40,547 nt of DNA, from positions 1 through 40,547 of the forward strand of contig SLRT01000149.1 in assembly GCA_007130825.1 (NCBI GenBank), written 5' to 3'. This stretch comes from Syntrophomonadaceae bacterium. Lineage in GTDB: Bacteria; Bacillota; Dethiobacteria; DTU022. Below the pieces are notes generated by a model, which was not told the DNA's origin, ran no database searches, and worked only from the letters and a program-made list of their open reading frames with translations. The translations under genes and the position numbers were made by a program. Shown in pieces: positions 1,713 through 31,620 of this stretch. The first letter of the stretch is position 1; each line of letters begins with the position of its first letter.

Positions 1713-2600
1713 TTATGCGAAACAAGCTATCTTGCGTTTTAGAATACTGTATTGTAGATCTACCTCTGCCTGGATCTCATTAATTTGTTCCTCCTGTAGA
1801 TGGCGATAACGGCGCTGTACTTTCAGGTATTCTGAGACAGGAGTACCGTCTGCTCCATAGTTTAAGGTGTACCTGGTCCCGTTTTCCACTTCGTAGAGAG
1901 GAAATATCCCACTTGTGACGGCCAGGCGGGAAATGCCTACCGCGCTGCTGTCGGTGAGCCCCCAGCCATCGAGGCAGGGTGTAAGAATATTAATCAAACG
2001 AGTACCTTTGATCTCCTTTGCCTTTTTTATTTTGTTTACCAGGTCATCGAGATATCCTACGGTGGCTGTGGCCACATAGGGAATCTGGTGAGCTGCCATG
2101 ATCTCTACCAGGTTTTTTTTCATTGTGGTCTTGCCACCGGGAGTAGAGGTTGTGTAGGCATAGTGAGGAGTAGAGGAGCTTTTCTGGGTGCCCGTATTCA
2201 TGTAGCCCTCGTTATCCATACAGAAATATATAATATCTTCTCCTCGTTCCGCAGCCGAAGAGAGGGCCTGGAAGCCGATATCATAGGTTCCACCATCACC
2301 GGCGATGGCAATGGCTTGAATATGGTCTTTTCCCTTGGACTTAAGAGCCCGTTTTATACCGGAGGCGGAGGCCGCACTGGATTCCAGTGTGGTCTGGTAG
2401 ACCGGAATACGCATGGAGCTATATGGCTGAGGCCCTGATATAATAGCTGCACAGGAAGGCGGAACCACTGCAATTGTGTCCGGTCCCAGGGTATTTAAAA
2501 CATATCGAAACGCCAGGGCCTGTCCGCAACCGGGGCAGGCCTGATGTCCCGAACTAAAAATATTTTCTTCACAAATGTCATAGTGCTTGTCATTCTCCAT
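1713..2600 (-). CDS. porB: 2-oxoacid:ferredoxin oxidoreductase, beta (TPP-binding) subunit
   Basis: About 295 residues. The N-terminal CPGCG (near residues 22-26) supplies Fe-S ligands. GDGGTYDIGFQAL followed about 20 residues later by DNEGYMNTG forms the thiamine-diphosphate/Mg binding motif. The subunit decarboxylates a 2-oxoacid and passes electrons to ferredoxin, forming acyl-CoA. It is the last gene of a four-gene minus-strand operon. An ATG at 2600 sits inside the end of porA and follows GGTAGGTGAAG; an upstream GTG at 2609 is also possible. The pyruvate branch is the likeliest assignment, but branched-chain or aryl 2-oxoacids cannot be excluded. Confidence 0.9.
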   Translation of the reverse strand: MENDKHYDICEENIFSSGHQACPGCGQALAFRYVLNTLGPDTIAVVPPSCAAIISGPQPYSSMRIPVYQTTLESSAASASGIKRALKSKGKDHIQAIAIAGDGGTYDIGFQALSSAAERGEDIIYFCMDNEGYMNTGTQKSSSTPHYAYTTSTPGGKTTMKKNLVEIMAAHQIPYVATATVGYLDDLVNKIKKAKEIKGTRLINILTPCLDGWGLTDSSAVGISRLAVTSGIFPLYEVENGTRYTLNYGADGTPVSEYLKVQRRYRHLQEEQINEIQAEVDLQYSILKRKIACFA

Positions 2601-3762
2601 CTTCTTCACCTACCCATATGGAGTTTATGTCTGCTTGTTTTAGTTTGGTGCGCTTTACCAGGCTGGCAATGAGGGCTGGAGAGACATTAAGTCCACCCAC
2701 ACCTGTAAGGAAGCCGTGCACAGCAGGTGCTTTCTCCATACCGCAAACGGCTGCTTTTACTTCCTGATGTAAAATTCCACCCAGCCCCGGGGAGAAATTC
2801 CGGTCCATAACCATTACCCGGGGAACACCTTTTAACAAATTTTGCAGCATGTCTACCGGAAAAGGACGAAAAAGCCGAACTTTTAGCAGACCTGCGGCTG
2901 TCCCCTGATCACGCATCATATCTACCGCTTCCCTTGCAGTTCCGCACATGCTGCCCATGGTAACGATGAGGACTTCTGCATCTTCACAGCGGTATGCTTC
3001 CAACAGTTCATAGCCCCGGCCGGTCAACTCTTTCCACTCTGTGTCAGCTTTTGCTGCAACATCCAGTGCTTGATCCATGGCTTCCCCTAGCGCTTTGCGG
3101 TGCCGCCAGAACATCTCCTGGTTTACTACGTTGCCCCAGGAGCGGTTAATGGAAGGATCAAGATATAATTCCGGGTCGAAGGGGGGCAGGTATGAATCTA
3201 CCAGGGTACGGGAGGGCACATCGACCACTTCAAGAGAATGGGAAACGTAAAAAGCTTCGTGAATAACCATCGCCGGCAGCAGTACCTGCTCTGCCGTGCG
3301 GTAAGCCTGCAGTACAGTATCCAGCGATTCCTGAGCGCTCTCCGAGTAGTACTGGATCCAGCCTGTGTCACGCTGAGCCAGGCTATCTGTTTGGTCAGGC
3401 CAGAACCCCCAGGGGGAACCGATGGTCCGGTTGACGTTGGCCATGACGATGGGTGCCCGAGCACCCGAAGCATAGTGAAGCATCTCGTGCATGAGAAAAA
3501 GTCCCTGGGATGCTGTCGCTGTAAAGACACGCACACCTGTTAATGAAGCGGTAATACAGGCAGCCATGGCCGAGTGCTCGGATTCGGGGGTTATGGTTTC
3601 TGCTTCTAATTCCCCGTTGAGCTGCAGTTCAGTAAGTTTTTCAGCAATTGGCGTCTGGGGGGTGATAGGATAAATGGGTAAAACATTGGGTCTGGCCAGC
3701 ATGGCCCCATAAGAAACAGCATGGTTTCCGGTGAGGAGCATTGCTTTTGATTCTTTTATCAT
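2590..3762 (-). CDS. porA: 2-oxoacid:ferredoxin oxidoreductase, alpha subunit
   Basis: 390 residues from the ATG at 3762. PIYPITPQTPIAEKL near the N-terminus is the hallmark of the alpha subunit's pyrimidine-binding domain. TATASQGLFLMHEMLHYASG and the ANVNRTIGSPWGFWPDQTD region are typical of pyruvate and 2-oxoisovalerate enzymes. A longer reading exists but lacks a ribosome site. The ATG at 3762 has AGGAGG 6 bases upstream and overlaps the preceding stop as ATGA, which shows translational coupling with the fused flavoprotein. It also overlaps porB by a few codons. Confidence 0.92.
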   Translation of the reverse strand: MIKESKAMLLTGNHAVSYGAMLARPNVLPIYPITPQTPIAEKLTELQLNGELEAETITPESEHSAMAACITASLTGVRVFTATASQGLFLMHEMLHYASGARAPIVMANVNRTIGSPWGFWPDQTDSLAQRDTGWIQYYSESAQESLDTVLQAYRTAEQVLLPAMVIHEAFYVSHSLEVVDVPSRTLVDSYLPPFDPELYLDPSINRSWGNVVNQEMFWRHRKALGEAMDQALDVAAKADTEWKELTGRGYELLEAYRCEDAEVLIVTMGSMCGTAREAVDMMRDQGTAAGLLKVRLFRPFPVDMLQNLLKGVPRVMVMDRNFSPGLGGILHQEVKAAVCGMEKAPAVHGFLTGVGGLNVSPALIASLVKRTKLKQADINSIWVGEEDGE

Positions 3763-5405
3763 TTTAACTCCTCCTTTAGGACAATGGCTCCGCGGGGACA
3801 TTCGGCAGCACAGAGGCCACAACCCTTGCAGTACTGATCCAGTACGCGGTAGCCTTCTTCCAGGCTTTCATCTCGCTGTACGGCCATATCGGGACAAAAA
3901 TAAAAACAGTTATCACAGTAAAGGCAGTTTCCACAGCTAAAACAACGTTCTGACTCAGCTACAACCTGATCCAAAAGAATCCCAGCTTCCACTTCGCGAA
4001 AATCTTCGGTTCGAGTTTCCACCGGTTCTTTATACTTTTTAAGTGTCGGTTTTGACGGAAAATAGAAGGTGTTTATCTCTTTAAAAGCAACCGGGTCGTT
4101 CTCCTCTTCCCTGTTATCTTCTTCAAAACCCAGGTAACGATAGATTTCAATGGCTCCTAAATGCCCGGCGCTGATAGCGCAGGAAACATAGCGTTCGGCG
4201 CTGATAAGATCTCCACCGGCAAAAAAACCATTTCCAGCATCCGCTTGTCCCTCTAGATCCAGCAAGCCTTTCAGAGGGGTAAGATCAGCCTGGGTGCCGG
4301 TAGCACCGATCAATGTGTCTAATTCTATGGCAAAAGTTTCATCTTCTACAACTACAGGGCGTTGCCGTCCTGATTCATCGGGTTCACCTAACTGCGTGCG
4401 CTGGCAGAGAAGAGTATTTTTTTTACCGTCCCGCTGCAAAGCGAGCGGGGCTGCCAGAAGTTCCAGCTTTACGCCTTCTTCTTCCGCTTCGAGAATTTCT
4501 TCGGCGCTGGAAGGCATCTGTTCACGTTCCCGGCGGTAAAGGATAATAACTTCCCGGGAGCCAAGGCGCAGAGCGCTGCGCGCCGCATCAACCGCTGTAT
4601 TGCCTCCTCCGACAACTACAACTTTTGGGCCCGGTATGGCCGGTATGCCTGTATTGATTTGTTCTAAAAATTTTAGTCCATCAAGGTATTCCGGTTTATC
4701 GTCAAGGTCTTTAAGGCCGGGCTTATGTTGCGCCCCGGTGGCGATGAATACAGCAGCATATGTTTCCTTTAGCTTTTTAAAATCAGCAGGATTTGTTAAA
4801 AGAGCGCCGGTTTTTAGTTCGATTCCAGTTTGTAGCAATCTTTCTATTTCACCATTAAGGATATTCTGGGGCAGGCGGTAGGAAGGAATACCATAGTAGA
4901 GCAAACCGCCCGGTTTTTGCTGCGCTTCGTAGACAGTTACAGCGAAACCACGTCGTCGAAGCTGGTATGCTGCGGAGAGGCCGGCAGGGCCGGCGCCCAC
5001 AATGGCAATCTTTTCTTTGCGGGAGAGGTTCATAATGTGCAGTTTCCAATCCTTTTCCAGGGCCAGGTCACCCAGGTAGCGTTCCAGTGCTTTTACTGAG
5101 ACTTTTTCGTCGTATTCATTACGGTTACATTCAAGTTCACAGGGATGATGACAGACCCTGCCGATTACAGCCGGGAAAGGATTGTTAGCAGTCAGACTAA
5201 GCCATGCTTCCCTGTGCTCACCGTTTTTTAACTGCTGGATCCACGTAGGAATTTCACCGTTTACAGGGCAAGCCTTGTGACAGGGTGCAGGACGGTGCTG
5301 GTGTACCGGTACAGCGCTTCGCCATGTTCCTGTATTAAAAATATCTGTCCATCCCGTTGTCCAGGTAGTAGGTATTTCAACTATTTTGTCTGATGTTTTT
5401 GCCAT
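3759..5405 (-). CDS. GltD-like NAD(P)/FAD oxidoreductase fused to a 2x[4Fe-4S] ferredoxin (PorD-like) domain
   Basis: 548 residues. The N-terminal Fe-S domain is typical of glutamate-synthase small subunits (C42, C46, C85, C89, C93). An FAD fold begins at residue 135 (IVGAGPAG), and a second Rossmann motif for NAD(P) (VVVVGGGNTAVDAA) lies near residue 260. The last 75 residues carry two ferredoxin-type cysteine clusters (CGNCLYCDNCFYFCP and CKGCGLCAAECP). The ferredoxin part stands in for the delta subunit found as a separate gene in most four-subunit enzymes. Inference: the fusion could connect the oxoacid oxidoreductase directly to NAD(P)H. The ATG follows AAAGGAG and abuts the porC stop. 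Confidence 0.88.
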   Translation of the reverse strand: MAKTSDKIVEIPTTWTTGWTDIFNTGTWRSAVPVHQHRPAPCHKACPVNGEIPTWIQQLKNGEHREAWLSLTANNPFPAVIGRVCHHPCELECNRNEYDEKVSVKALERYLGDLALEKDWKLHIMNLSRKEKIAIVGAGPAGLSAAYQLRRRGFAVTVYEAQQKPGGLLYYGIPSYRLPQNILNGEIERLLQTGIELKTGALLTNPADFKKLKETYAAVFIATGAQHKPGLKDLDDKPEYLDGLKFLEQINTGIPAIPGPKVVVVGGGNTAVDAARSALRLGSREVIILYRREREQMPSSAEEILEAEEEGVKLELLAAPLALQRDGKKNTLLCQRTQLGEPDESGRQRPVVVEDETFAIELDTLIGATGTQADLTPLKGLLDLEGQADAGNGFFAGGDLISAERYVSCAISAGHLGAIEIYRYLGFEEDNREEENDPVAFKEINTFYFPSKPTLKKYKEPVETRTEDFREVEAGILLDQVVAESERCFSCGNCLYCDNCFYFCPDMAVQRDESLEEGYRVLDQYCKGCGLCAAECPRGAIVLKEELK

Positions 5406-5954
5406 TTACGCTACTCCTTTAAATTTTTTGGCCAGTTCGTAGCCATCGCGAAAGGAACTTATGTTTTCAGGCACTTTTACGGGGCTCATCTCTTCGATAA
5501 CATTTTGCATATTCTTGAAATCCGGGGCATCCAGTAACCCGGCGAGAGCTCCAAGCAAAACTGAATTGACGATACGGCCGAGCCCGTTTCGGGAAGCAAT
5601 GTTTATCCCGTCGATGGTGTATACTTTAAAACCGCTGCATTCTTTCAGATCTTTTGCCTCTTTGGTGGAATTGATAAGCAGGCTTGTGTCTTTATTTATT
5701 CCTTTAAGCATTTTTTCATCGATAAGGCTGGCATCAAAAATGAGAACTGCATCAGGATTTTCTATGTCGCAGCGCAGCCTGATCGGTCGATTATCGATGC
5801 GAATGTAAGAACTCACTGCCGTACCGCGCCGGGCTCCTCCATAACTGGCAAAAGCTTGCACATATTTGCCTTCACGGAAAAATGCTGTTGCCAGTACCTG
5901 GGCCGCCATTTGCGCCCCTTGGCCACCGCGTCCGTGTATCTTGATTTGCAGCAC
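5406..5954 (-). CDS. porC: 2-oxoacid:ferredoxin oxidoreductase, gamma subunit
   Basis: About 182 residues. The N-terminal IKIHGRGGQGAQMAAQVLA, then QAFASYGGARRG and VNSVLLGALAG, are diagnostic of the gamma domain. I place the start at the GTG at 5954, which gives the conserved MLQIKIHGRGGQG opening and has GGAGGTG 9 bases upstream; the ATG at 5972 overlaps that ribosome site. This is the first gene of the operon gamma, flavoprotein-ferredoxin, alpha, beta. Confidence 0.9.
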   Translation of the reverse strand: MLQIKIHGRGGQGAQMAAQVLATAFFREGKYVQAFASYGGARRGTAVSSYIRIDNRPIRLRCDIENPDAVLIFDASLIDEKMLKGINKDTSLLINSTKEAKDLKECSGFKVYTIDGINIASRNGLGRIVNSVLLGALAGLLDAPDFKNMQNVIEEMSPVKVPENISSFRDGYELAKKFKGVA

Positions 5955-6576
5955 TTGTTGAAACACCTCCATAGTCCATTTTAATTGTTTGATTATAATA
6001 TAATATCATTACCAAATTATAATGCATTATATACTGGCAATTTAATATTTCTTAGCTTGGTACTTACGAAAGAAATGGTTTCATGTAAACTTAAGCTCAG
6101 GCTACCATTTAAAGCCAACATGAGCTTAATAAGCAGAGAAAAAGAGGAGTTTTGCTGCTCTTATACTACCACAAAGAAAAATATATTCAACCCCTAAAGA
6201 AATAATTATTGTCATTGAGGTTATGAAAAGAAGAAACCCAACGGGCCAGGTTAACTGAAATTGATCTGTCCAGAATTTGCTCTGCCAGTAACAAGATACC
6301 GGTATTAAGGCAAAATTGCTTATCTGTTTAGTATGGCGATTCACTTGTATTTGTGAGGTAAAAAAGAAAAGTAGCTCTACCTTTAGCTCGCAAAATGATA
6401 ACCAGCTAAACGACTACCTGGGCTAATAATAGAAATTGAAACAGCGGTAATGTTGACCGGCAACTTGCCATTCATGGCGAAAAAATTAAATTTTTTATTC
6501 CATACCTCCAAATAGATAAGAAGCAAAGTACCAGGGTGATGTGCCAATTCTGGCAGTACGCAGGTATACAAATTGC
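5955..6576. other. Gene-free AT-rich spacer between por operon and carbamate kinase
   Basis: Short open frames here have no family resemblance and no convincing ribosome site. Several TATAAT-like hexamers lie at 5995-6035 on the minus strand, where the por promoter must be, but none has a good -35 partner. A hairpin (6091-6099 with 6121-6129, inner pair 6100-6103/6113-6116) is the only clear structure. Confidence 0.6.
6091..6129. repeat. Inverted repeat, 9-bp arms with inner 4-bp stem
   Basis: TTAAGCTCA and TGAGCTTAA are perfectly complementary and enclose GGCT/AGCC. There is no adjacent T-run, so it is not a standard terminator. Function unknown. Confidence 0.5.
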
Positions 6577-10541: not shown

Positions 10542-11918
10542 CTAAAGCAAATCTTTCAACCTGTAATAGTTTAATTTATAGTAAAGGGTGCTCCTGGGGA
10601 TATTTAATATTTTTGCCGCCTTGCTTTTATTTCCGTCGACCATTTCCATAACTTTTCTTAAAACTTCCATTTCTGTTTTGGCGACACAGGTTTGCAAATC
10701 AAAACTTTCCCCCCCGTTTCGTGTTTTGCTCAGTGAACGCTCGATAATTTGTTCGGGGACACTTTCAAGCTCAATTTTTCCGTTCCTGGAGAACACCACA
10801 AGATGTTCCGCTGTATTTTTTAATTCCCGAATATTCCCTTTCCAGCTATAGTTGGTTAATACATTAAAAACTTCGGGCCTCAGTTTAGGTACATCCAGGT
10901 TATTTTTACTGCAAAATTTGTCTATAAAAGATTCTGCCAGGATTGGGATATCTTCTTTTCTCTCCCGCAGTGGGGGCAGCTCAACTTTAATCACGTTCAG
11001 TCTGTAATATAAGTCTTCTCTGAAGGTCCCAGTATCCACCATTTTGCGCAAGTCTTTATTGGAGGCCGAGATGATTCTTACATCTACTTCTCTGGGAGTG
11101 TCTGCTCCTATACGCAGGACCTTGTTTTCCTGGAGGACACGAAGCAGTTTGGCCTGCATGTGCGTGGGCATATCGCTTATTTCATCTAAAAAGAGAGTCC
11201 CCTGGCTAGCGTTTTCGAACTGCCCACCTTTCCCTTGTTTAAGAGCCCCGGTAAAAGCGCCGCCCACGTAGCCAAACATTTCACTTTCAAAAAGATTCTC
11301 AGGTATGGCGCTGCAATTTATTGCTACAAAGTTGCCTTTTCTGCCGCTGTGCTGGTGAATAGCCCGGGCAAATATTTCTTTACCGGTTCCGCTTTCACCG
11401 GTAATCAAAATACCGCTGTTTGTTTTGGCCACCTGTTTGGCCCGGTCAATTTTCTGTTTTATGACTTCGCTTTTGCCCAGGATTTGACCGAAAGAAAATT
11501 TTTCTTCACTTAGTTTGCTAACTTCTTCCCTGAGCTGGTTAAGTCTGTCCTTGGTTTCCTCCAGCTCGAAGGTTAGGTTAGTCATTTCTGTTACATCTTT
11601 GTCTGTGGATATCGCCCCGATAAAATGAGAGTTATAATAAAGGGGTTTGCTGCTGACCACGACATATGTACCTTTCCGGGGACTAACGTAAATATTTTTT
11701 GCTTCTTTTTTGTTTTCCAGGACGCTCAGCAGTAAGGCTGTGGGAAAAAAATCTTTTAATGGTTTTCCCACAATCTGGTATGTTTTAACATTAAAAAGCG
11801 CTTCAGATTTCTTACTCCAGTGAACAACAATACCGTCTTTATCAACAATGCATACAGCCTCATGAATTGCATTGAGAATATTTTTTACAGCTTCACTTTG
11901 AAGAATTCTAAGAGGCAT
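10542..11918 (-). CDS. Sigma-54-dependent transcriptional activator (PAS-AAA+-Fis)
   Basis: 458 residues. PAS sensor domain at 1-115, a short coiled linker (115-140), AAA+ core at about 145-385 and a Fis-type helix-turn-helix at the C-terminus (KSKAAKILNIPRSTLYYKL). The Walker A motif GESGTGK is at 174-180, the sigma-54 contact loop GAFTGA at 220-225 and Walker B LFLDE at 242-246, so it should be a competent ATP-driven activator. The PAS domain suggests it senses a small ligand. It lies beside a transporter and a dehydrogenase operon that both carry -24/-12 promoters, so it is the likely regulator of both. The ATG follows GGGGTGG. Confidence 0.93.
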   Translation of the reverse strand: MPLRILQSEAVKNILNAIHEAVCIVDKDGIVVHWSKKSEALFNVKTYQIVGKPLKDFFPTALLLSVLENKKEAKNIYVSPRKGTYVVVSSKPLYYNSHFIGAISTDKDVTEMTNLTFELEETKDRLNQLREEVSKLSEEKFSFGQILGKSEVIKQKIDRAKQVAKTNSGILITGESGTGKEIFARAIHQHSGRKGNFVAINCSAIPENLFESEMFGYVGGAFTGALKQGKGGQFENASQGTLFLDEISDMPTHMQAKLLRVLQENKVLRIGADTPREVDVRIISASNKDLRKMVDTGTFREDLYYRLNVIKVELPPLRERKEDIPILAESFIDKFCSKNNLDVPKLRPEVFNVLTNYSWKGNIRELKNTAEHLVVFSRNGKIELESVPEQIIERSLSKTRNGGESFDLQTCVAKTEMEVLRKVMEMVDGNKSKAAKILNIPRSTLYYKLNYYRLKDLL

Positions 11919-12081: not shown

Positions 12082-12189
12082 CTATTTCCATTTAGATCTG
12101 GCGCACATTGCCACCCTGACAAAGTATCCCACGATAGCAATATAACCTCCCAAGAAAACAATCATCCAGATGATAATTTCTGCATCCAT
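12082..12189 (-). CDS. MetS-like small subunit of an NSS-family transporter (35 residues)
   Basis: A 35-codon gene with a strong AAAGGAGG site (12197-12204) 7 bases before its ATG. The product starts MDAEIIIWMIVFLGGYIAIV: an acidic tip, one membrane helix and a basic, cysteine-containing tail ending RSKWK. One-helix peptides of this kind encoded directly after SLC6-type transporters in Gram-positive bacteria belong to the MetS family, known to be required for the MetP methionine/alanine transporter. It is separated from the transporter gene by a short hairpin and followed by a strong terminator. Confidence 0.8.
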   Translation of the reverse strand: MDAEIIIWMIVFLGGYIAIVGYFVRVAMCARSKWK

Positions 12190-12277: not shown

Positions 12278-13753
12278 TCACTCATCTTTCTTGGTCATCG
12301 GACCGGCAACAACATTCTTGGCAAAGAAGTTGTTGAGAGCATAGCAAACAATGAAAAGTATGGCCCACTGGAAGATCATAGTGCCGGTAGTAAACACTTC
12401 AAAGGGATGCCACCAGTTGTCGGGATACCATTCAATAGACTGCATGACCCACCAGCCGAAAATAAAGACAAACATTAAGGGAATGATCCTGATCAAGAAA
12501 GTCCACCAAGCGCCAATGTGCAGGTCGCTGGTTTCGTTGAGTTGGGCGCGGGCTTTTTCCACGCCGTATTTCATCATCGCTACAGCTGTCAGTAAACCAC
12601 TGATCAGAAGGCCTACTCCCCAGACCCAGTCCTGGTTGTCCAGGAAATTGATACTTAGGGCGGAAGGAATCCCGAATAAGAAAGTGGCAATACCGGCATA
12701 TATAGCTGCTTTTTTACGGTCTATACCGAAATTCATAACGTTGGTGGTAATAAGTTCGATCATAGCGATTAAAGAAGAAATAGCTGCCAGGAAAAGAGCC
12801 AGGAAGAAAAGAGAAGAAACCAACCATGCGGCTGGTGTTTCAGCCAGAAGTTCAACAACATAAATGAAGGTGAGGCCAATGTTGCCGGCTGCCAGAGCTT
12901 CTTCGGCTAATTCTATAGTAGGAGACATGGCATAAACTGTACACAAAACAGCGATAGCCGCAACAAAGCCGGCCAGAACATCGGCAAAGCCAATGATGGT
13001 ACAGTTAACGCCAACATCCTCTTTTGCCCTGGCGTAAGAAGCATAAACCAGGAGCAGGCCCCAACCTGCGCCTGTAGACCAGGCAGCCTGGGTAAAGGCT
13101 TCCAGCCAGACCCGGCCGCTTATCAACAGGGGCCAATCCGGCACGAAGAGGTAGCGCAGTCCTTCAACAGAACCTGGGAGCAGAACAGCTCGTATAGCCA
13201 GGATAATAAGCAGAACAAAAAGGGAAGGCAAAAGTACTTTTAGTATACTTTCCAATCCGCCTTTTATTCCCCGGTAAACTACAAAAAATACAATTAATAC
13301 TGCGAGAAAATGAAAGCCGATGGTTTCCAGGGGATTTCCAATAAAGGCATCCCAAAAGGCTTGTCCTTCAACTCCCGGGGTGATAGAACCGGAAAGAGCA
13401 TATACAAAATAACGCAGAGACCATCCGGCGACAACTGCATAATAGAATGTTATCCCGATGCAGACCAGGGCCATCCAGGCGCCTACCCAGGCGAACTTTT
13501 TGCCCATAAAGTCCCGGAAAGCTCCAACATTACCCAGCTGGGATCGCTGTCCCATGAGAAATTCTGCCATCAAAAGCGGGATCGCCCAAAATACCAAAGC
13601 AATAGTTATAGCAATTAGAAAGGAACCACCGCCCCATTCGGCCGCTACCCGGGGGAACCTCCAGATGTTTCCTGTTCCAACAGCCATGGAGATAGCAGCT
13701 ATAACAACGACTATCCTGCTACCCCATTCTTCTCTTTGACCATTCGGAGCCAT
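12278..13753 (-). CDS. Neurotransmitter:sodium symporter (SLC6/NSS) family transporter
   Basis: 491 residues with about 11-12 membrane helices. The first helix carries VGTGNIWRFPRVAAEWGGGSFL, the unwound substrate- and sodium-binding segment of LeuT-type transporters. Characterised bacterial members carry neutral amino acids with sodium. The GGAGG site lies 11 bases before the ATG. Upstream is a minus-strand -24/-12 promoter; downstream is the MetS-like peptide gene. Because the divergent operon encodes an amine/imino-acid dehydrogenase under the same kind of promoter, I infer that it imports that enzyme's substrate. Confidence 0.92.
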   Translation of the reverse strand: MAPNGQREEWGSRIVVVIAAISMAVGTGNIWRFPRVAAEWGGGSFLIAITIALVFWAIPLLMAEFLMGQRSQLGNVGAFRDFMGKKFAWVGAWMALVCIGITFYYAVVAGWSLRYFVYALSGSITPGVEGQAFWDAFIGNPLETIGFHFLAVLIVFFVVYRGIKGGLESILKVLLPSLFVLLIILAIRAVLLPGSVEGLRYLFVPDWPLLISGRVWLEAFTQAAWSTGAGWGLLLVYASYARAKEDVGVNCTIIGFADVLAGFVAAIAVLCTVYAMSPTIELAEEALAAGNIGLTFIYVVELLAETPAAWLVSSLFFLALFLAAISSLIAMIELITTNVMNFGIDRKKAAIYAGIATFLFGIPSALSINFLDNQDWVWGVGLLISGLLTAVAMMKYGVEKARAQLNETSDLHIGAWWTFLIRIIPLMFVFIFGWWVMQSIEWYPDNWWHPFEVFTTGTMIFQWAILFIVCYALNNFFAKNVVAGPMTKKDE

Positions 13754-13890
13754 AAAATATTTTTCCTCCTTTCGATCTTTAAAAAAATAATAAATAGCTT
13801 GTGTTACCCTGTAATACCTTGTGCTTAAAAAAATCTTGGTTTAAAGTTCGGAGTATAGGCATCCCACCTTTTTGAATAAATTAGTCTCCC

Positions 13891-13900
13891 TACACGTGTA
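13891..13900. promoter_or_regulatory. Palindrome at the start of the transporter transcript
   Basis: TACACGTGTA is a perfect 10-bp palindrome placed just downstream of the minus-strand sigma-54 promoter, close to the expected transcription start. It could be an operator, but no partner site is seen. Confidence 0.3.
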
Positions 13901-13910
13901 CAATGCTTTT

Positions 13911-13928
13911 TTGCAATTGGTATGCCAT
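13911..13928 (-). promoter_or_regulatory. Sigma-54 (-24/-12) promoter of the transporter operon
   Basis: The minus strand reads ATGGCATACCAATTGCAA. The invariant GG (13926-13925) and GC (13914-13913) are separated by exactly 10 bases, as the sigma-54 consensus TGGCAc-N5-TTGCa requires. The transcript would begin near 13902, about 150 bases before the start codon. Confidence 0.75.
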
Positions 13929-14069
13929 TCATCAATAATTACAATCAACCTTTAGTCTATACAATAGTAAAATTGCCAAGTTTACCGCTATTGTGTAGTG
14001 TACGCATATATAGTATAACTATTACAAGAATAATACAAGTAAATATTTAACTGTAAAAATACGGTATAA

Positions 14070-14160
14070 TGTCAGTATGTTGACACTAATAAAGCATTAC
14101 TAATACACTAAGTATTGTGAAGCAACTGTCAGCTTGCTGACATATGTCATTTATCTGACA
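14070..14160. promoter_or_regulatory. Three activator-binding sites TGTCA-N6-TGACA
   Basis: Three 16-bp dyads lie at 14070-14085, 14127-14142 and 14145-14160, each TGTCA-N6-TGACA; the middle one extends to TGTCAGC..GCTGACA. The last two are 18 bases apart centre to centre, the first 57 bases away. They lie about 175-250 bases upstream of one sigma-54 start and 220-295 upstream of the other, the usual distance for enhancer sites. Inference: they are bound by the adjacent PAS-AAA+-Fis activator and serve both promoters. Confidence 0.8.
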
Positions 14161-14345
14161 TCCATAAATACTTCGAGTTTTTTTGACTAATATTCATTTA
14201 TTCTCGTTTTTACCTTCGGCCGGTTATTAAAGGCTGTTTAAATGGTTAAAGCTTATTTAATGTATCTTTTTGACCAATATATATTTCTATCCTTACAGCG
14301 GGCTAAAAAGAAAAGGAAGCCTGATAAGCTGAAATGCCAGTTTCT

Positions 14346-14363
14346 TTGGCATAAAAATTGCTT
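14346..14363 (+). promoter_or_regulatory. Sigma-54 (-24/-12) promoter of the dehydrogenase operon
   Basis: TTGGCATAAAAATTGCTT has GG at 14348-14349 and GC at 14360-14361 with the required 10-base spacing. The transcript would start near 14373, leaving a leader of about 110 bases. Confidence 0.8.
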
Positions 14364-14485
14364 TTATATTATGCATGGAGATGAGCTCAGGTAAACGCTG
14401 GTAAGTTTATGTGCAAGTTAAAGATAGTAAAGAAATTTAAATACATAAAAAATAAATCAACATGAAGCCGACGGGAGGTAAAAGT

Positions 14486-14800
14486 TTGAGAATTAAAGAT
14501 CACCCAATTATTGATTTTCAACGGGGTAAACAGGTTACCTTTAGTTTTAATGGCCGACAGGTAACAGCTTATGAGGGCGAGACCATTGCAGCGGCGCTGC
14601 ACGCTGCCGGAGTAAGGGTGTTAAGCCACAGTCACAAACTAAAGCGGCCGCGCGGGTTTTTTTGCGCGATCGGTAACTGTTCTTCGTGCCTGATGCAAGT
14701 TAACGGAGAGTTTAACGTGCGGATTTGCATTACCCCGGCGCGGGAAGGTGACCGGGTGGAAATGCAGCAAGGAAGAGGTGAAATCGTTGAAAAAACCTGA
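14486..14800 (+). CDS. [2Fe-2S] ferredoxin-like subunit of an amine/imino-acid dehydrogenase
   Basis: 104 residues. The plant-type ferredoxin fold has ligands C60-x4-C65-x2-C68-x12-C81. The RPRGFFCAIGNCSSCLM region is the same as in the N-terminal part of sarcosine oxidase alpha, HcnA and hydroxyproline dehydrogenase gamma subunits. A TTG at 14486 is chosen because GGGAGG lies 7 bases before it; an ATG at 14462 would start upstream of that site. It is the first gene of a six-gene plus-strand operon behind a sigma-54 promoter. Confidence 0.82.
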   Translation: MRIKDHPIIDFQRGKQVTFSFNGRQVTAYEGETIAAALHAAGVRVLSHSHKLKRPRGFFCAIGNCSSCLMQVNGEFNVRICITPAREGDRVEMQQGRGEIVEKT

Positions 14801-15881
14801 GATTGCCATAGTGGGTGGTGGACCGGCCGGTTTATCGGCTGCCTTGAGCGCTGTTCGCCAGGGCGCCCAGGTAATGCTGATTGATCGTGACCCTGTTTTG
14901 GGCGGACAACTGGTTAAGCAAACCCATATGTTTTTTGGATCCAAGAAACAGTATGCCGCTATACGCGGTATTGACATTCCTCAAAAGCTTCTTGCTGCTT
15001 TGCAGGAAGAAGGCAATGGAAAATTTGACCCCCGGGTAAATACCACCGTCCTTGGCTGCTATGACGATGGTGTTTTACTCCTGGAAAAGGAAGACCGGGC
15101 TGAACTTATTCAACCTAGGAAAATCATTATTGCCACCGGTGCCGCAGAAAAGATGCTACCATTCCCCGGAAATGACCTGCCCGGGGTTTACGGAGCCGGT
15201 GCGGTGCAGACCCTGATGAATGTCTATGGCATCAAGCCTGGCACAAGGGTGCTTATGATCGGCGCCGGCAATATTGGCTTAATTGTCAGCTACCAGCTGC
15301 TGCAGGCGGGGGTGGAAGTGACGGCGATTATCGAGGGGGCGCCGAAGATCGGGGGCTACCTGGTCCATGCTACCAAAGTGCGCCGGGCCGGAATACCGAT
15401 ATTGACTTCCCACACCATTAAAAAAGCCTATGGATGTGATTCGGTGGAAGGAGCGGTGCTCTGTAATTTGGACGAAAAGTGGTGTGCTGTTCCCGGCACC
15501 GAGCAGAGCCTGGCAGTGGATGTAATCTGCCTGGCAGTCGGCTTGACCCCCCAGACTGAACTATTATGGCAGGCCGGCTGCGAACAGCAATATTTGCCCG
15601 AGCTGGGCGGTTACGTGCCTTTGCGCAGTGAAAAAATGCAGACCTCCCTTTCTCACCTGTTCGTGGCAGGCGACGCAGCCTGCATAGAAGAAGCCGGTTC
15701 GGCAATGGTCGAAGGTAAAATTGCCGGCCTTTTTGCTGCTGCAGACCTGGGTTATGCCGAGAATGTCGAAGCGCTTAATGAAACTTTTTCCCGTGAGCTC
15801 GAAGAGCTGCGCAGCGGACCAGCAGGGGCCAAGATCAGGCAGGGTTTGTCCAGGCTTAAAGGAGGTGCTCAAGTATGTTAG
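14787..15881 (+). CDS. FAD-dependent oxidoreductase, alpha subunit of the dehydrogenase complex (HcnB/SoxA core type)
   Basis: About 364 residues. IAIVGGGPAGLSAALSA at the N-terminus binds FAD. A second Rossmann motif (VLMIGAGNIGLIVSYQLL) lies near the middle, and a C-terminal LFVAGDAACIEEAGSAMVEGKIAG closes the FAD site. The order matches the flavoprotein of sarcosine/proline/hydroxyproline dehydrogenases and hydrogen cyanide synthase. In many of these, the ferredoxin and BFD-like parts are fused to it; here they are separate genes on either side. The TTG at 14787 follows AGAGGTG and overlaps the previous gene by 14 bases. Confidence 0.87.
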   Translation: MKKPEIAIVGGGPAGLSAALSAVRQGAQVMLIDRDPVLGGQLVKQTHMFFGSKKQYAAIRGIDIPQKLLAALQEEGNGKFDPRVNTTVLGCYDDGVLLLEKEDRAELIQPRKIIIATGAAEKMLPFPGNDLPGVYGAGAVQTLMNVYGIKPGTRVLMIGAGNIGLIVSYQLLQAGVEVTAIIEGAPKIGGYLVHATKVRRAGIPILTSHTIKKAYGCDSVEGAVLCNLDEKWCAVPGTEQSLAVDVICLAVGLTPQTELLWQAGCEQQYLPELGGYVPLRSEKMQTSLSHLFVAGDAACIEEAGSAMVEGKIAGLFAAADLGYAENVEALNETFSRELEELRSGPAGAKIRQGLSRLKGGAQVC

Positions 15882-16369
15882 AAAAAACCGGAGTTCCTGA
15901 TGCAGATCAAATAAAAAAAATAACTCCTTCTCCGGGAAGGCTCAAAAAAGGTCCTGTAGCAGTAGTCGAATGTTTTCAAAGTATTCCCTGCGATCCCTGC
16001 CGTTATGCCTGCCGTCAGGAGGCAATCAAGGAATTTAAAGACATAAACGATCTTCCTGTAATCGATCATGATTTATGTAACGGCTGCGGGTCGTGTATCA
16101 GCAAATGTCCCGGCCTGGCTATTTTTGTAATCGATGATACCTACAGCGAAAAAGAAGGCCTGGTTAAACTGCCCTACGAATATTTACCCCTCCCCCGGCC
16201 CGAAGAAGAGGAAAACGGAATAGACACCGAAGGCTGGGAGGTATGCAGCGCCCGGGTAGTAAAAGTGCAAAATGCCAAAGTATTGGATCGCACACCGGTT
16301 GTGTGGTTGACTGTTCCCCGGGAGCACCTGATGAAAGTACGCAATTTTCTTAGAAAAGGCGGTGCATAA
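15875..16369 (+). CDS. 2x[4Fe-4S] protein of the dehydrogenase complex
   Basis: 164 residues with two cysteine clusters: C33-x5-C39-x2-C42-x3-C46 (the first is atypical) and the regular C68-x2-C71-x2-C74-x3-C78. The C-terminal half has no recognised domain. It likely moves electrons from the flavoproteins to ferredoxin or another carrier. AAAGGAGGTG lies 6 bases before the ATG, and the start overlaps the previous stop by 7 bases, indicating coupling. Such an extra subunit is absent from the aerobic sarcosine oxidases, in line with an anaerobe. Confidence 0.82.
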   Translation: MLEKTGVPDADQIKKITPSPGRLKKGPVAVVECFQSIPCDPCRYACRQEAIKEFKDINDLPVIDHDLCNGCGSCISKCPGLAIFVIDDTYSEKEGLVKLPYEYLPLPRPEEEENGIDTEGWEVCSARVVKVQNAKVLDRTPVVWLTVPREHLMKVRNFLRKGGA

Positions 16370-16370
16370 A

Positions 16371-16649
16371 ATGGAAGAAGATACCATTATCTGCCGTTGC
16401 GAAGATTTAACACTTGCCGATATCCGGAAAACGATTAAAAGTGGACACCAGAACCCCCAGGTAATCAAGCGCCTTACCCGTTGTGGTATGGGGCCCTGCC
16501 AGGGTAGTACCTGCCGGGAATTACTCTTAAAAGAGGTGGCATCAGCAGCGGGTAAAAGTGTGGGCGAACTGGAAATGACTACCTACCGGCCGCCGACCAA
16601 GCCGATTAAAATAAAAAGTATGTTAGGAGCCGACAAAGATGACAGCTAA
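16371..16649 (+). CDS. BFD-like [2Fe-2S] subunit
   Basis: 92 residues. Ligands C8-x-C10 and C38-x4-C43, then CQGSTC, follow the bacterioferritin-associated-ferredoxin-like domain that is usually the C-terminal part of the alpha flavoprotein in HcnB/SoxA relatives. Here it is a free-standing gene, starting directly after the previous stop with AAGGCGG before the ATG at 16371. Confidence 0.82.
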   Translation: MEEDTIICRCEDLTLADIRKTIKSGHQNPQVIKRLTRCGMGPCQGSTCRELLLKEVASAAGKSVGELEMTTYRPPTKPIKIKSMLGADKDDS

Positions 16650-17796
16650 AGCAGATGCAGTGATCATTGGCGGAGGTGTCCATGGATGCAGTATAGCTTA
16701 TCACCTGGCTAAAAAAGGATGGAAAAATGTTATCCTGTTGGAAAAAGGCACTCTTGCCTGCGGCGCAACCGGCCGCAGTGTGGCGGGAATTCGCCATCAG
16801 TTTGGTACGGAGATAAATATACGCCTGGCTAAAGAAAGCGTAAAGAGGATGGAAAGACTGGAAGAAGAACTGGATTACCCTGAAAGCATTGAATTAATGC
16901 AAAATGGTTACCTGATGCTGTCATACAGCGCAGAAGAACTGGAGCTTTTCCGCTGTAATCGAGACCTTCAAAAATCGCTAGATCCGGACAATCAAACTGA
17001 AATCCTCACCCCGGAGCAGGCAGCAGATCTTGTGCCTGGATTAAACCTCGAAGGGCTTTATGGGGCCTCATTTAATCGCCAAGACGGGCATGCCAGTCCA
17101 TTTCACGTTACCCAGGCTTATGCGGATGCTGCCAAACGATTGGGGGTGGATATTCGGACCGGGGTAGAAGTGACCGACATAAAAAAAGACCGTTCTCATG
17201 TAACCGGGGTTGTCACCGGCAAAGGTGAGGAGATAAGCGCCCCGGTGGTTATTGCAGCAGCCGGCGCGTACACTAAACCCCTGGGAGAAATGCTTGGCCT
17301 GGAAATTCCTGTTATACCGGAGCGTCACCAGGTTGCGGTTACTGAGCCGTTGGAGATGTTTTTAGGCATTATGGTTATATCTTTTGCCCACGGAGCATAT
17401 TTTAAACAGACTCCACACGGTAGTTTACTGCTGGGAGTTGGAGATCCGGAACGTGAGGTAAAAGATTTTAATGAACGATCCAGCTGGCAATTTTTATACG
17501 ATGTATTCGAAAAAACTACCTTTCACCTGCCTGTCCTTCGTGAGGCAAACGTAATCCGGCAATGGGCGGGACTTTATGACATGACTCCCGACTCCCAGGG
17601 TATCCTCGGGAAAACTGAAGTTGAAGGTTTTTATATCAACACCGGCTGGAGCGGTCACGGTTTCCAGTTAGCCCCGGCGGTGGGCCAGGTTATGGCTGAA
17701 ATCGTATCCGGGGAAAAACCGTTTATTGATGTTAGCTGTATGCACCTGGAACGGTTCGAACGTGGAGAGCTGATCCCGGAACCGGCCTGTGTTTAA
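16639..17796 (+). CDS. DAO-family FAD oxidoreductase, catalytic beta subunit (SoxB/HcnC/proline dehydrogenase beta type)
   Basis: 385 residues. The FAD-binding start AVIIGGGVHGCSIAYHLAKKG, ACGATGRSVAGIRHQFGTE, and the C-terminal NTGWSGHGFQLAPAVGQVMAE are typical of glycine/sarcosine/proline-oxidising subunits. This subunit should oxidise the C-N bond of a secondary amine or amino acid. It overlaps the BFD-like gene by 11 bases. Without biochemistry the substrate (proline, hydroxyproline, sarcosine or another N-methyl amino acid) cannot be fixed. Confidence 0.88.
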   Translation: MTAKADAVIIGGGVHGCSIAYHLAKKGWKNVILLEKGTLACGATGRSVAGIRHQFGTEINIRLAKESVKRMERLEEELDYPESIELMQNGYLMLSYSAEELELFRCNRDLQKSLDPDNQTEILTPEQAADLVPGLNLEGLYGASFNRQDGHASPFHVTQAYADAAKRLGVDIRTGVEVTDIKKDRSHVTGVVTGKGEEISAPVVIAAAGAYTKPLGEMLGLEIPVIPERHQVAVTEPLEMFLGIMVISFAHGAYFKQTPHGSLLLGVGDPEREVKDFNERSSWQFLYDVFEKTTFHLPVLREANVIRQWAGLYDMTPDSQGILGKTEVEGFYINTGWSGHGFQLAPAVGQVMAEIVSGEKPFIDVSCMHLERFERGELIPEPACV

Positions 17797-17812
17797 TAAT
17801 TGGGGAGTGATG

Positions 17813-18604
17813 ATGATTAACATATACGGCGGAGAAAGAGAATTCGGTTATTTGTCCGAAAACAGTGACGACAGGGTTATCCGCATGAAAAAGGGTCAGA
17901 ATTATGCTGGATACTCGGTGGGAATCCTGCATATCGATGATGTTTACTATCCACTTTTGCCCGGGAATGTGGTTAATGCTTACAGCTATGATTTTCCCGT
18001 TAAAATGAAGGCCGTGCCTGACCTTGATGTCCAGGGGCTGCTCAGTGGCGATTCCAGCCTGGGGGAACCGATTGTCAGGGCGGCAGTAGAACTGGAGAAA
18101 GAAGGGATCAGGGCCATTTCCGGGGCCTGCGGGTTCTTTGGTTTTTTTCAGAAACAGGTGGCGGAAGCGGTTGAAGTGCCGGTCAGCATGTCCAGCCTGG
18201 TCCAGGCCGGCTGGATTAAGACCACCTTGAAACCGGGTCAGAGGATTGGAGTATTGACTGCCGACCTGGCTTCGATTAATGACCGGCTCTTGGAAAGCTG
18301 CTACATCGAGGATCCCGGCATGCTGGTAATCAAAGATTTAAGGCATGGACCGCATTTTTCTGCGATTTTAGAAGGCATGGGCACATTTAACAACGGAGAA
18401 GTAAAAAAAGAAGTCACCTCTGCGGTCGTGGAACTGGTAAAAGAAAACAATGATATCGGGGCTATTTTGCTTGAATGCAGCGATATGCCGCCCTATGCCG
18501 CTTATGTCCAGAGAGCAGTTGGCCTGCCGGTTTTTGATTTCATTACCATGATCCGGTGGCTGCACTACGCGACAACCCAGAGGCCTTACACCGGTCATAT
18601 ATGA
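17813..18604 (+). CDS. Aspartate/glutamate/hydantoin racemase-family protein
   Basis: 263 residues from the ATG at 17813, which has GGGGAG 5 bases upstream. Two cysteines in the right positions for two-base racemisation are C106 (SGACGFFG) and C212 (LLECSDMPPYA). It is the last gene of the dehydrogenase operon. In this setting it may convert the D- and L-forms of the imported substrate or product, but the family also includes maleate isomerases and decarboxylases, so the reaction is open. Confidence 0.8.
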   Translation: MINIYGGEREFGYLSENSDDRVIRMKKGQNYAGYSVGILHIDDVYYPLLPGNVVNAYSYDFPVKMKAVPDLDVQGLLSGDSSLGEPIVRAAVELEKEGIRAISGACGFFGFFQKQVAEAVEVPVSMSSLVQAGWIKTTLKPGQRIGVLTADLASINDRLLESCYIEDPGMLVIKDLRHGPHFSAILEGMGTFNNGEVKKEVTSAVVELVKENNDIGAILLECSDMPPYAAYVQRAVGLPVFDFITMIRWLHYATTQRPYTGHI

Positions 18605-20847: not shown

Positions 20848-22146
20848 TTAAGCAATAGTATCCCTGCTGTTCTCATATTTTTGATGCTCTTTTACATCAA
20901 TAATACCCTTTAAGCTTTGGACCACCTGCCATACTTCATGGAAGGTGTTGTAAAGAGCAATCGGAGCAAGGCGGATGATGTTTGGCGGCCGATAATCAGG
21001 GATAATGCCTCTTGCTTTAAGGGCTTTATTGATACTGGCGGCGTTATCATGCTCTACAGCTACATGCCCGCCTCTGCGTTTTATTTCGCGGGGAGTTCCT
21101 ACCCGGTAATTATAAGGGGTGCTGGTGAGTCCTATTTCTTCCAGGAGATATATTAAGTAAGAAGTGAGTTTCAGAGACTTTTCCCGCACACTATCAATCC
21201 CAGCTTCTGCAAAAATTCGCAAGGATCCTTCCAGTGGGGCGGTGCTCAGGAGTTGGGGAGAACTGATCTGCCAACCTCCTGCTCCATAAGCCTGTTCAAA
21301 CTCAAGCAGCATATCAAACTGCCTGTCTTTTCTATAACCCCACCAGCCAGCTAAAGAGGGCGTTTTAGTAAAATGTATATTGTTTACAAAAAGGCTTGCT
21401 GTTGCCCCCGGCCCTCCATTCATATGCTTATAATTACACCAGAGCGCAAAATCCACTCCCCACCGGTCAAAATAATGAGGGACTGCACCAATGGAATGGC
21501 TGCAGTCAAAACCAATGAGAATGCCTTGTTCATGTGCTTTCGCTGTCAGCAGCTCCATATCCAATAACTGTCCGCTTCGATAATATACGGAAGGAAGAAG
21601 AATTAAAGCTATTTCATCTCCCATATTTTCCAGGGAAGCGATGATGTCTTTTTCCTCAATCAAGCGGCTTTCGCTGCTTTTGATCAGGACAAGATGTTCT
21701 GCAGGATCAAGGTTTTTAATGTTGATCTGGCTCTCCAGGGCATAAATATCAGAAGGAAAATTCAGTTCGTCGGCCAGGATCTTTGTCCTTGAACCCCGGG
21801 GCTGATAAAAAGTACCGACAAGGGTATGGAGGTTAACGGTAGTCGATCCGGTGACAATTACTTCATCTTGTTTTGCCCCGACCAGCGGCGCCTGTAACCC
21901 TCCCAATTTTTCACCGTAATAGAACCAGGGATTTTCTTTATCCAGCCAGCCCCCAATACCCAGGCGTTTCCATTGATCCAACACCTTAAACAGGCTTTCT
22001 TCTCCATCTTTGGACAACAAGCCTAAAGAATTTCCATCCATATAGATCTTATTCGGTGGGAGGTGAAAACGCTTTCTGTAACCAGCCAGCGGGTCTTGTT
22101 TGTCCAGGTGCAGGGCTCCTTCTTTGCCGATATTAAAAACAGTCAT
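20848..22146 (-). CDS. kynU: Kynureninase
   Basis: 432 residues, full length. A PLP enzyme that cleaves kynurenine to anthranilate and alanine. YMDGNSLGLLSKDGEE near residue 35, FDCSHSIGAVPHYF, and CNYKHMNGGPG with the PLP-binding lysine, are the family's signatures. The C-terminal half (PPNIIRLAPIALYNTFHEVW) is also typical. The ATG follows GTGAGGC. There is no tryptophan or indoleamine dioxygenase nearby, as expected for an anaerobe; a formamidase-like gene lies 9 kb away. It may use kynurenine or a related aroyl-alanine taken up from outside. Confidence 0.93.
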   Translation of the reverse strand: MTVFNIGKEGALHLDKQDPLAGYRKRFHLPPNKIYMDGNSLGLLSKDGEESLFKVLDQWKRLGIGGWLDKENPWFYYGEKLGGLQAPLVGAKQDEVIVTGSTTVNLHTLVGTFYQPRGSRTKILADELNFPSDIYALESQINIKNLDPAEHLVLIKSSESRLIEEKDIIASLENMGDEIALILLPSVYYRSGQLLDMELLTAKAHEQGILIGFDCSHSIGAVPHYFDRWGVDFALWCNYKHMNGGPGATASLFVNNIHFTKTPSLAGWWGYRKDRQFDMLLEFEQAYGAGGWQISSPQLLSTAPLEGSLRIFAEAGIDSVREKSLKLTSYLIYLLEEIGLTSTPYNYRVGTPREIKRRGGHVAVEHDNAASINKALKARGIIPDYRPPNIIRLAPIALYNTFHEVWQVVQSLKGIIDVKEHQKYENSRDTIA

Positions 22147-30922: not shown

Positions 30923-31522
30923 TTATTCCAGCGTTAAAGGTTTTTCAAAAAGAATAGCTCTACACGGCGAGCCCTCGGCCCCTTTAATTTTAACGGGGGC
31001 GGCGACCAGGAAATAATTCCCGTCAGCTGCTTCGCTAAGATCCAATGATTCTATAATTGCAACCCCGTTGGAAAGGAAGGGGACATGGATGCTGGCTTCA
31101 TCTTCCATGGGTGCTACTGACCAGGCATCCGCTCCCACAGTGATTATGCCCTGATCTATCAGGTACTGGCCTGCGCATGGCGCAAGGTAAGAGGTCCCGT
31201 TTGATTTTAGCAGGAGGCGCTTTACGCTTTTCGCTAAATTATCTTTGAAAAATTCGGCCTGCACAAGGCAATTTTCCGGAATTGAAAGCACCTGGCAGGG
31301 CCCGATAAAATGATCCAGGGGCATTTCTGAAATGTCTTTTGCCCCGTCGCAGAAATGAAGGTAGGCATCGCAGTGGGTTCCGGCATGAAGGTTTGAGTGA
31401 AGCAGGTTTAAGTTGTAAGGGTAGCCTTCGCTAAAGCTTGCCAGCTGTTCCAGGTAGGGACCGGGAGCATCGGGGTAGCGTGGAGCCGAGAGCATTTCCC
31501 GGCTAATGTCGTAGTATTTCAT
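30923..31522 (-). CDS. Cyclase family (kynurenine formamidase-like) metal-dependent hydrolase
   Basis: About 199 residues from the ATG at 31522, which has GAGGTGA 5 bases upstream. The metal-binding motif H-x-GTH-x-DAYLH (LHAGTHCDAYLHF) is intact. The fold hydrolyses formyl- or cyclic amides, for example N-formylkynurenine or isatin. With a kynureninase in the same window, a kynurenine-related role is tempting, but the family is broad and the genes are 9 kb apart. Confidence 0.82.
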   Translation of the reverse strand: MKYYDISREMLSAPRYPDAPGPYLEQLASFSEGYPYNLNLLHSNLHAGTHCDAYLHFCDGAKDISEMPLDHFIGPCQVLSIPENCLVQAEFFKDNLAKSVKRLLLKSNGTSYLAPCAGQYLIDQGIITVGADAWSVAPMEDEASIHVPFLSNGVAIIESLDLSEAADGNYFLVAAPVKIKGAEGSPCRAILFEKPLTLE

Positions 31523-31620
31523 TTGCGTCACCTCTCGTGTAGTAGTAGGAAATTCCTATTTTAAGGACTATGGTTATATGTTAAAAGGATACCATAGCCA
31601 CGTTATTTCAACAACATAAA

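Follow-up and report, generated by a model that had tools for sequence, protein, structure and literature searches.

A probable PrdR-type, sigma-54-dependent proline regulon organised around one dyad array and two divergent promoters in a soda-lake Syntrophomonadaceae bacterium

Genes and promoter elements at the locus

The DNA analysed here (the window) is a stretch of 40,547 nucleotides from the 2.33-Mb genome of a soda-lake Syntrophomonadaceae bacterium. Within it, an intergenic region (13754-14485) lies between a sodium symporter gene and a divergently oriented dehydrogenase operon. A sequence-only reading had placed two divergent -24/-12 promoters with exact GG-N10-GC spacing in this region, and both boxes are indeed perfect and point outwards: the predicted transporter promoter TGGCATACCAATTGC at 13927-13913 on the minus strand, and the predicted dehydrogenase promoter TGGCATAAAAATTGC at 14347-14361 on the plus strand, each matching TGGCA-N6-TTGC without mismatch. 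The same reading had noted three TGTCA-N6-TGACA dyads between the promoters, and all three are perfect (14070-14160). They comprise a singlet (14070..14085), which is nearer the transporter promoter and whose geometry is kept in relatives, and a doublet (14127..14142 and 14145..14160) with a start-to-start distance of 18 bp. A search for riboswitches and other known RNA elements found none in the window.

The statistical weight of these elements differs. By chance, the 40.5-kb window is expected to hold a mean of 0.67 -24/-12 boxes, and 13 of 100 shuffled sequences reach two; two boxes are therefore not rare, and the evidence for them lies in their position and conservation. This is the one point in favour of the pattern having arisen by chance in AT-rich intergenic DNA. 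Against it, only 0.04 dyads are expected in the whole window and none of 100 dinucleotide shuffles reaches three, while the entire genome holds just four perfect dyads, three of them in this array. Together with conservation of the array in diverged sister genomes, the shuffles and genome-wide counts rule out a chance origin, the probability of which we regard as negligible. The fourth genomic dyad lies within the coding sequence of a GGDEF-protein gene, and was rejected as a further target on account of that position. The genome also carries one rpoN gene (208.8 bits), the presence of which had been proposed as a check on the promoter assignment, and an activator with an AAA+ domain, a GAFTGA loop and a Fis-type helix-turn-helix adjoins the target genes, so that GG-N10-GC boxes, sigma factor and enhancer-binding protein are all present.

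To the left of the array, on the minus strand, lies the symporter gene (12278..13753), followed by a 35-codon open reading frame with a ribosome-binding site (12082..12189). The transporter had been described as a sodium symporter with a small subunit; it can now be placed more precisely in the NSS/SNF family, as it matches PF00209 with 206.7 bits (cut-off 27), which rules out the SSS family. Its closest solved structure is MhsT (4us3), and it is predicted to be a Na+/proline importer from its association in relatives with prd and Δ1-pyrroline-5-carboxylate (P5C) dehydrogenase genes. The downstream reading frame is genuine and encodes a single-helix, MetS-like subunit; of 80 related loci, nearly all have a small reading frame behind the transporter gene. 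MetPS of Corynebacterium is a bacterial NSS transporter with a small subunit of this kind. Like MetPS, MhsT and LeuT, the window transporter belongs to the SNF family, and it has a tiny single-helix partner gene; it is unlike them in its predicted proline substrate and its putative sigma-54 control.

To the right, on the plus strand, what had been read as a six-gene dehydrogenase operon resolves into a five-gene, L-proline-dehydrogenase-like complex and an Asp/Glu-type racemase gene. The first gene encodes a 2Fe-2S subunit equivalent to the N-terminal part of an alpha subunit (14486..14800; TTG start with GGAGG), and is overlapped by a gene for an alpha-like FAD/NAD(P) oxidoreductase subunit (14748..15881; start uncertain). 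These are followed by a gamma-like, 4Fe-4S ferredoxin-like subunit (15875..16369) and a delta-like, BFD-like [2Fe-2S] subunit (16362..16649), both assigned by profile matches, by the DAO-fold FAD catalytic beta subunit (16639..17796), and by a protein of the Asp/Glu/hydantoin-racemase superfamily with two invariant cysteines (17789..18604). The subunit order alpha, gamma, delta, beta is complete, with alpha split over two genes. Among solved relatives, the beta subunit best matches the L-proline dehydrogenase beta subunit of P. horikoshii (1y56_B; 238 bits, versus 178 bits for sarcosine oxidase beta), so the DAO-fold catalytic subunit resembles that of this alpha4-beta4 enzyme (1y56). The order alpha, ferredoxin-like, small Fe-S, beta also recalls the four-subunit, alpha-beta-gamma-delta enzyme of Thermococcus profundus, the genes of which are arranged pdhA-F-X-B (PMC4364671), and the window complex has the Arg-X-Trp FMN motif (as RQW). 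Unlike these enzymes it is bacterial, has its alpha subunit divided into 2Fe-2S and FAD genes, is predicted to be under sigma-54 control, and is accompanied by a racemase gene.

A structural model of the sixth gene product (mean pLDDT 76.5) matches arylmalonate decarboxylase as well as Asp/Glu/hydantoin racemases; racemisation of proline by this protein is a guess. Genes of this superfamily also occur near the transporter in four other loci (L023, L092, L093 and L095), and in other loci a proline racemase of the usual family is found there. The two types were not seen together at transporter loci, and the Asp/Glu-type enzyme could possibly be a replacement of the usual one.

Elsewhere in the window, a 2-oxoacid:ferredoxin oxidoreductase operon (1713-5972), with a TPP subunit and an NAD(P)-binding Fe-S protein that has a ferredoxin-type C-terminus, may serve amino-acid fermentation. 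A kynureninase (KYNU_C; 20848-22146) and, 9 kb away, a cyclase-family protein that is possibly a kynurenine formamidase (30923-31531) raise the possibility of anaerobic tryptophan breakdown.

Conservation of the array with the activator

The dyads had been expected to be conserved in orthologous intergenic regions and to co-occur with the activator, and both expectations are borne out. An order-wide comparison covered 71 genomes, allowing up to 3 mismatches in the doublet and requiring at least 63% identity for an activator orthologue. The transporter occurs in 8 of the 71 genomes, the activator orthologue in 7 and the 18-bp-spaced doublet in 7. All seven doublet genomes carry the transporter, six of the seven activator-orthologue genomes have the doublet, and the doublet is present in none of the genomes that have neither transporter nor activator. 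The two departures from co-occurrence are attributable to assembly, as G001 is 77% complete and yielded no activator orthologue, and the G005 contig is short.

Similar results were obtained for 83 loci with orthologous transporters. Two or more dyads lie upstream of the transporter in 15 of 20 activator-linked loci versus 7 of 63 others; for a perfect -24/-12 box, the figures are 18 of 20 versus 4 of 63. In two of the four box-bearing exceptions, both of them sister species, the activator gene is either absent from the assembly or located on a different contig; conversely, three activator-linked loci (L041, L049 and L077) have weak or no dyads. When all 1024 palindromic half-sites with a spacer of 6 were compared in the upstream regions, TGTCA clearly led, its 16 perfect dyads being spread over 9 loci (the runner-up has 3), and no TGTCA dyads with other spacers were found in these regions. 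The geometry of the array is also kept: the doublet members are 18 bp apart, the singlet lies 45-114 bp closer to the promoter, and the dyad nearest the -24 element is mostly about 90-165 bp, and up to 211 bp, from it. The dyads and the perfect box thus track the window-type activator across distant Clostridia, and these comparisons support a shared sigma-54 enhancer.

The proposal that one enhancer is shared by divergent promoters gains support from four sister species (G001, G004, G007 and G010), in which, as in the window, two perfect -24/-12 boxes flank a single array and point away from it. Elsewhere in Clostridia, the activator gene is followed by the array, a single promoter, the transporter and the dehydrogenase, and the divergent, shared form is therefore a lineage-specific rearrangement. 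The array might instead activate a single promoter of the pair, and a different factor, or a weaker site that escaped recognition, would then serve the other; most clostridial arrays do serve a single transporter-dehydrogenase promoter, and sharing is our interpretation of the layout. Five species of the genus have both perfect boxes together with one array, and no second array is found beside either promoter, so we consider activation of one promoter alone quite unlikely. Further perfect -24/-12 boxes, without adjacent dyads, were observed in three relatives: at 3113-3127 of L017 (G001:C188), 2138-2152 of L151 (G004:C9) and 340-354 of L152 (G005:C108). Those of G004 and G005 precede a second NSS transporter gene. 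The box in G001 is located behind the transporter and is separated from the array by about 2.3 kb, so that long-range action of the enhancer is conceivable there.

Relationship of the activator to PrdR

The gene that had been noted as a neighbouring PAS-AAA+-Fis activator is present at 10542..11918 on the minus strand, and domain and profile searches identify its product as a sigma-54 activator with a GAFTGA loop that is related to PrdR. The protein scores 709 bits against the NCBIfam PrdR model (NF041552), aligning to positions 134-576; it falls under the curated cut-off of 795 because the CBS region, corresponding to the first 133 model positions, is missing. An N-terminal CBS pair is present in prd-linked PrdR proteins, whereas the window activator and that of G031 lack it. 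In a phylogenetic tree the window activator clade joins the prd-linked PrdR proteins, weakly (84/60), and stands apart from 13 Alkaliphilus-type activators. The recognition helix is near-identical in all three groups, and its sequence in the window activator, IPRSTLYYK, is common to bona fide PrdR.

The binding-site array is likewise common to prd-linked PrdR. In Anaerovirgula, Geosporobacter and Anaerosolibacter, the same doublet-plus-singlet arrangement lies upstream of the prd operon that adjoins true PrdR, and in G031 an activator of the window clade follows prdD-prdE and precedes the array and the transporter. The prd operon of one sister species (L158, G071:C6; PrdA over cut-off) was found to have neither dyad array nor -24/-12 box, so the prd link of the window clade is not universal. 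In G044, a second activator copy, of which the C-terminal part remains at the contig end (L146; 6669-7478), and the full copy are in tandem and flank the transporter on both sides.

Palindromes of the TGTCA-N6-TGACA kind are bound by several regulator families, and the dyads could in principle be sites for an unrelated regulator, such as a repressor, with the neighbouring activator acting elsewhere. This appears very improbable, as the dyads co-occur with the activator both within the order and in distant Clostridia, and the same array is found at prd operons beside true PrdR, the published motif of which is TGT-N10-12-ACA (PMC6615313).

Two of the nearest comparable systems concern regulation. 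The window resembles the PrdR/sigma-54 D-proline reductase regulon of C. difficile and other Clostridia (prdC, prdABDEF; PMC6615313) in its PrdR-like activator with a near-identical recognition helix, its TGT-N10-ACA dyads in a doublet-plus-singlet array, and its -24/-12 promoters. It is unlike that regulon in that an NSS importer and a proline dehydrogenase complex take the place of proline reductase as predicted targets, the activator has no CBS pair, a single array is flanked by divergent promoters, and prdA was not found in the genome. As in the sigma-54 regulons of Clostridiales reconstructed by Nie et al. 2019 (PMC6615313), the activator adjoins its presumed targets, and multiple upstream sites lie 100-250 bp from the promoter; unlike those regulons, the window target set is in none of the 39 groups of their Table 1. 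A literature search for this transporter and dehydrogenase set under PrdR control found none in the library covered.

Proline as the predicted ligand and substrate

It had been suggested that the locus would allow ligand and substrate to be assigned. Proline can be assigned to both roles, although the assignment rests on relatives, not on this locus alone. As PrdR responds to proline (PMC6867894), the ligand of the window activator is probably proline as well. For the enzyme and importer, proline is the best-supported substrate from the beta-subunit match, the gene order, and the prd and P5C dehydrogenase context. In Halanaerobiaceae, transporter and dehydrogenase genes are followed by genes for P5C dehydrogenase (TIGR01236; 793 bits, cut-off 614) and 2-oxoglutarate:ferredoxin oxidoreductase subunits; in Anaerovirgula the locus adjoins proABC and the prd operon; and prd operons of Thermosediminibacteraceae contain orthologous transporters (L057, L059, L066 and L072).

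The same regulatory logic could apply to another substrate, a related imino or N-methyl amino acid such as 4-hydroxyproline, sarcosine or dimethylglycine, that the activator would sense. Sarcosine oxidase beta and dimethylglycine dehydrogenase are among the matches of the DAO-fold beta subunit, the same heteromeric family includes hydroxyproline and opine dehydrogenases (PMC4575208), and a PAS-type activator of B. thuringiensis, SoxR, controls an operon annotated as sarcosine oxidase that includes a proline racemase (PMC4428206). We nonetheless consider a different substrate unlikely, since the best solved match is an L-proline dehydrogenase, P5C dehydrogenase adjoins the complex in Halanaerobiaceae, the neighbours in relatives include prd, proline racemase and proABC genes, and the activator is PrdR-like.

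The regulon had also been described as complete within 8 kb. Activator, importer and enzyme are all there, but the pathway is incomplete because P5C dehydrogenase (792 bits, over the cut-off) is encoded on another contig, without this promoter or array. The window genome contains two proline-racemase-family genes, and the array was found neither at the proline racemase gene nor at the P5C dehydrogenase gene; a search for D-proline reductase gave no PF09338 match in the genome. Aldehyde:ferredoxin oxidoreductase was rejected as the next enzyme in this organism, as only distant matches (29-33%) were found and a P5C dehydrogenase over the cut-off exists. In Alkaliphilus-type loci (L040, 17352-19969, and 13 others), a 4Fe-4S protein and a 718-residue aldehyde:ferredoxin oxidoreductase usually follow the dehydrogenase, and this enzyme might oxidise glutamate semialdehyde with ferredoxin. 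A proline-racemase-family gene beside TRAP-transporter-like and aldehyde:ferredoxin oxidoreductase genes was also observed (L161, G000:C121; 2815-3825).

We assign a probability of roughly 0.8 to the reading that this region controls a PrdR-type, sigma-54-dependent proline regulon, with one enhancer serving two divergent promoters. From the elements, their conservation, their co-occurrence with the activator and the homologies, all read directly from sequence and comparison, we infer proline as ligand and substrate, activator binding, and looping to both promoters. In this model, the activator would sense proline or a related signal and bind the three dyads as an enhancer, and looping would then drive sigma-54 RNA polymerase at both promoters. 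The left promoter would produce the Na+-coupled NSS importer and its 35-residue subunit, and the right promoter the multi-subunit L-proline dehydrogenase, converting proline to P5C, along with a cofactor-independent racemase; P5C would be oxidised to glutamate by the P5C dehydrogenase encoded elsewhere. A broader reading is offered tentatively, as possible but on balance doubtful: that a PrdR-type proline regulon switched from reduction of proline to its uptake and oxidation, that its PAS-only activator lost the CBS pair, that a single enhancer of three dyads serves two promoters (three in sister species, where the third is some 2.3 kb distant), and that a new proline racemase of the Asp/Glu superfamily, independent of cofactors, replaces the usual one found beside the complex in other lineages.

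Proline provides a checkable substrate for an importer and a five-subunit oxidoreductase, and a checkable ligand for an activator, all of which automatic annotation would leave generic. Operons for proline reduction and for proline oxidation have this array and recognition helix in common, and a testable question is whether cross-regulation occurs in Anaerovirgula, Geosporobacter and Anaerosolibacter, which have operons of both kinds. Control of the PrdR type is known from proline reduction in gut Clostridia; in soda-lake and alkaliphilic Clostridia it probably extends to the uptake and oxidation of proline.
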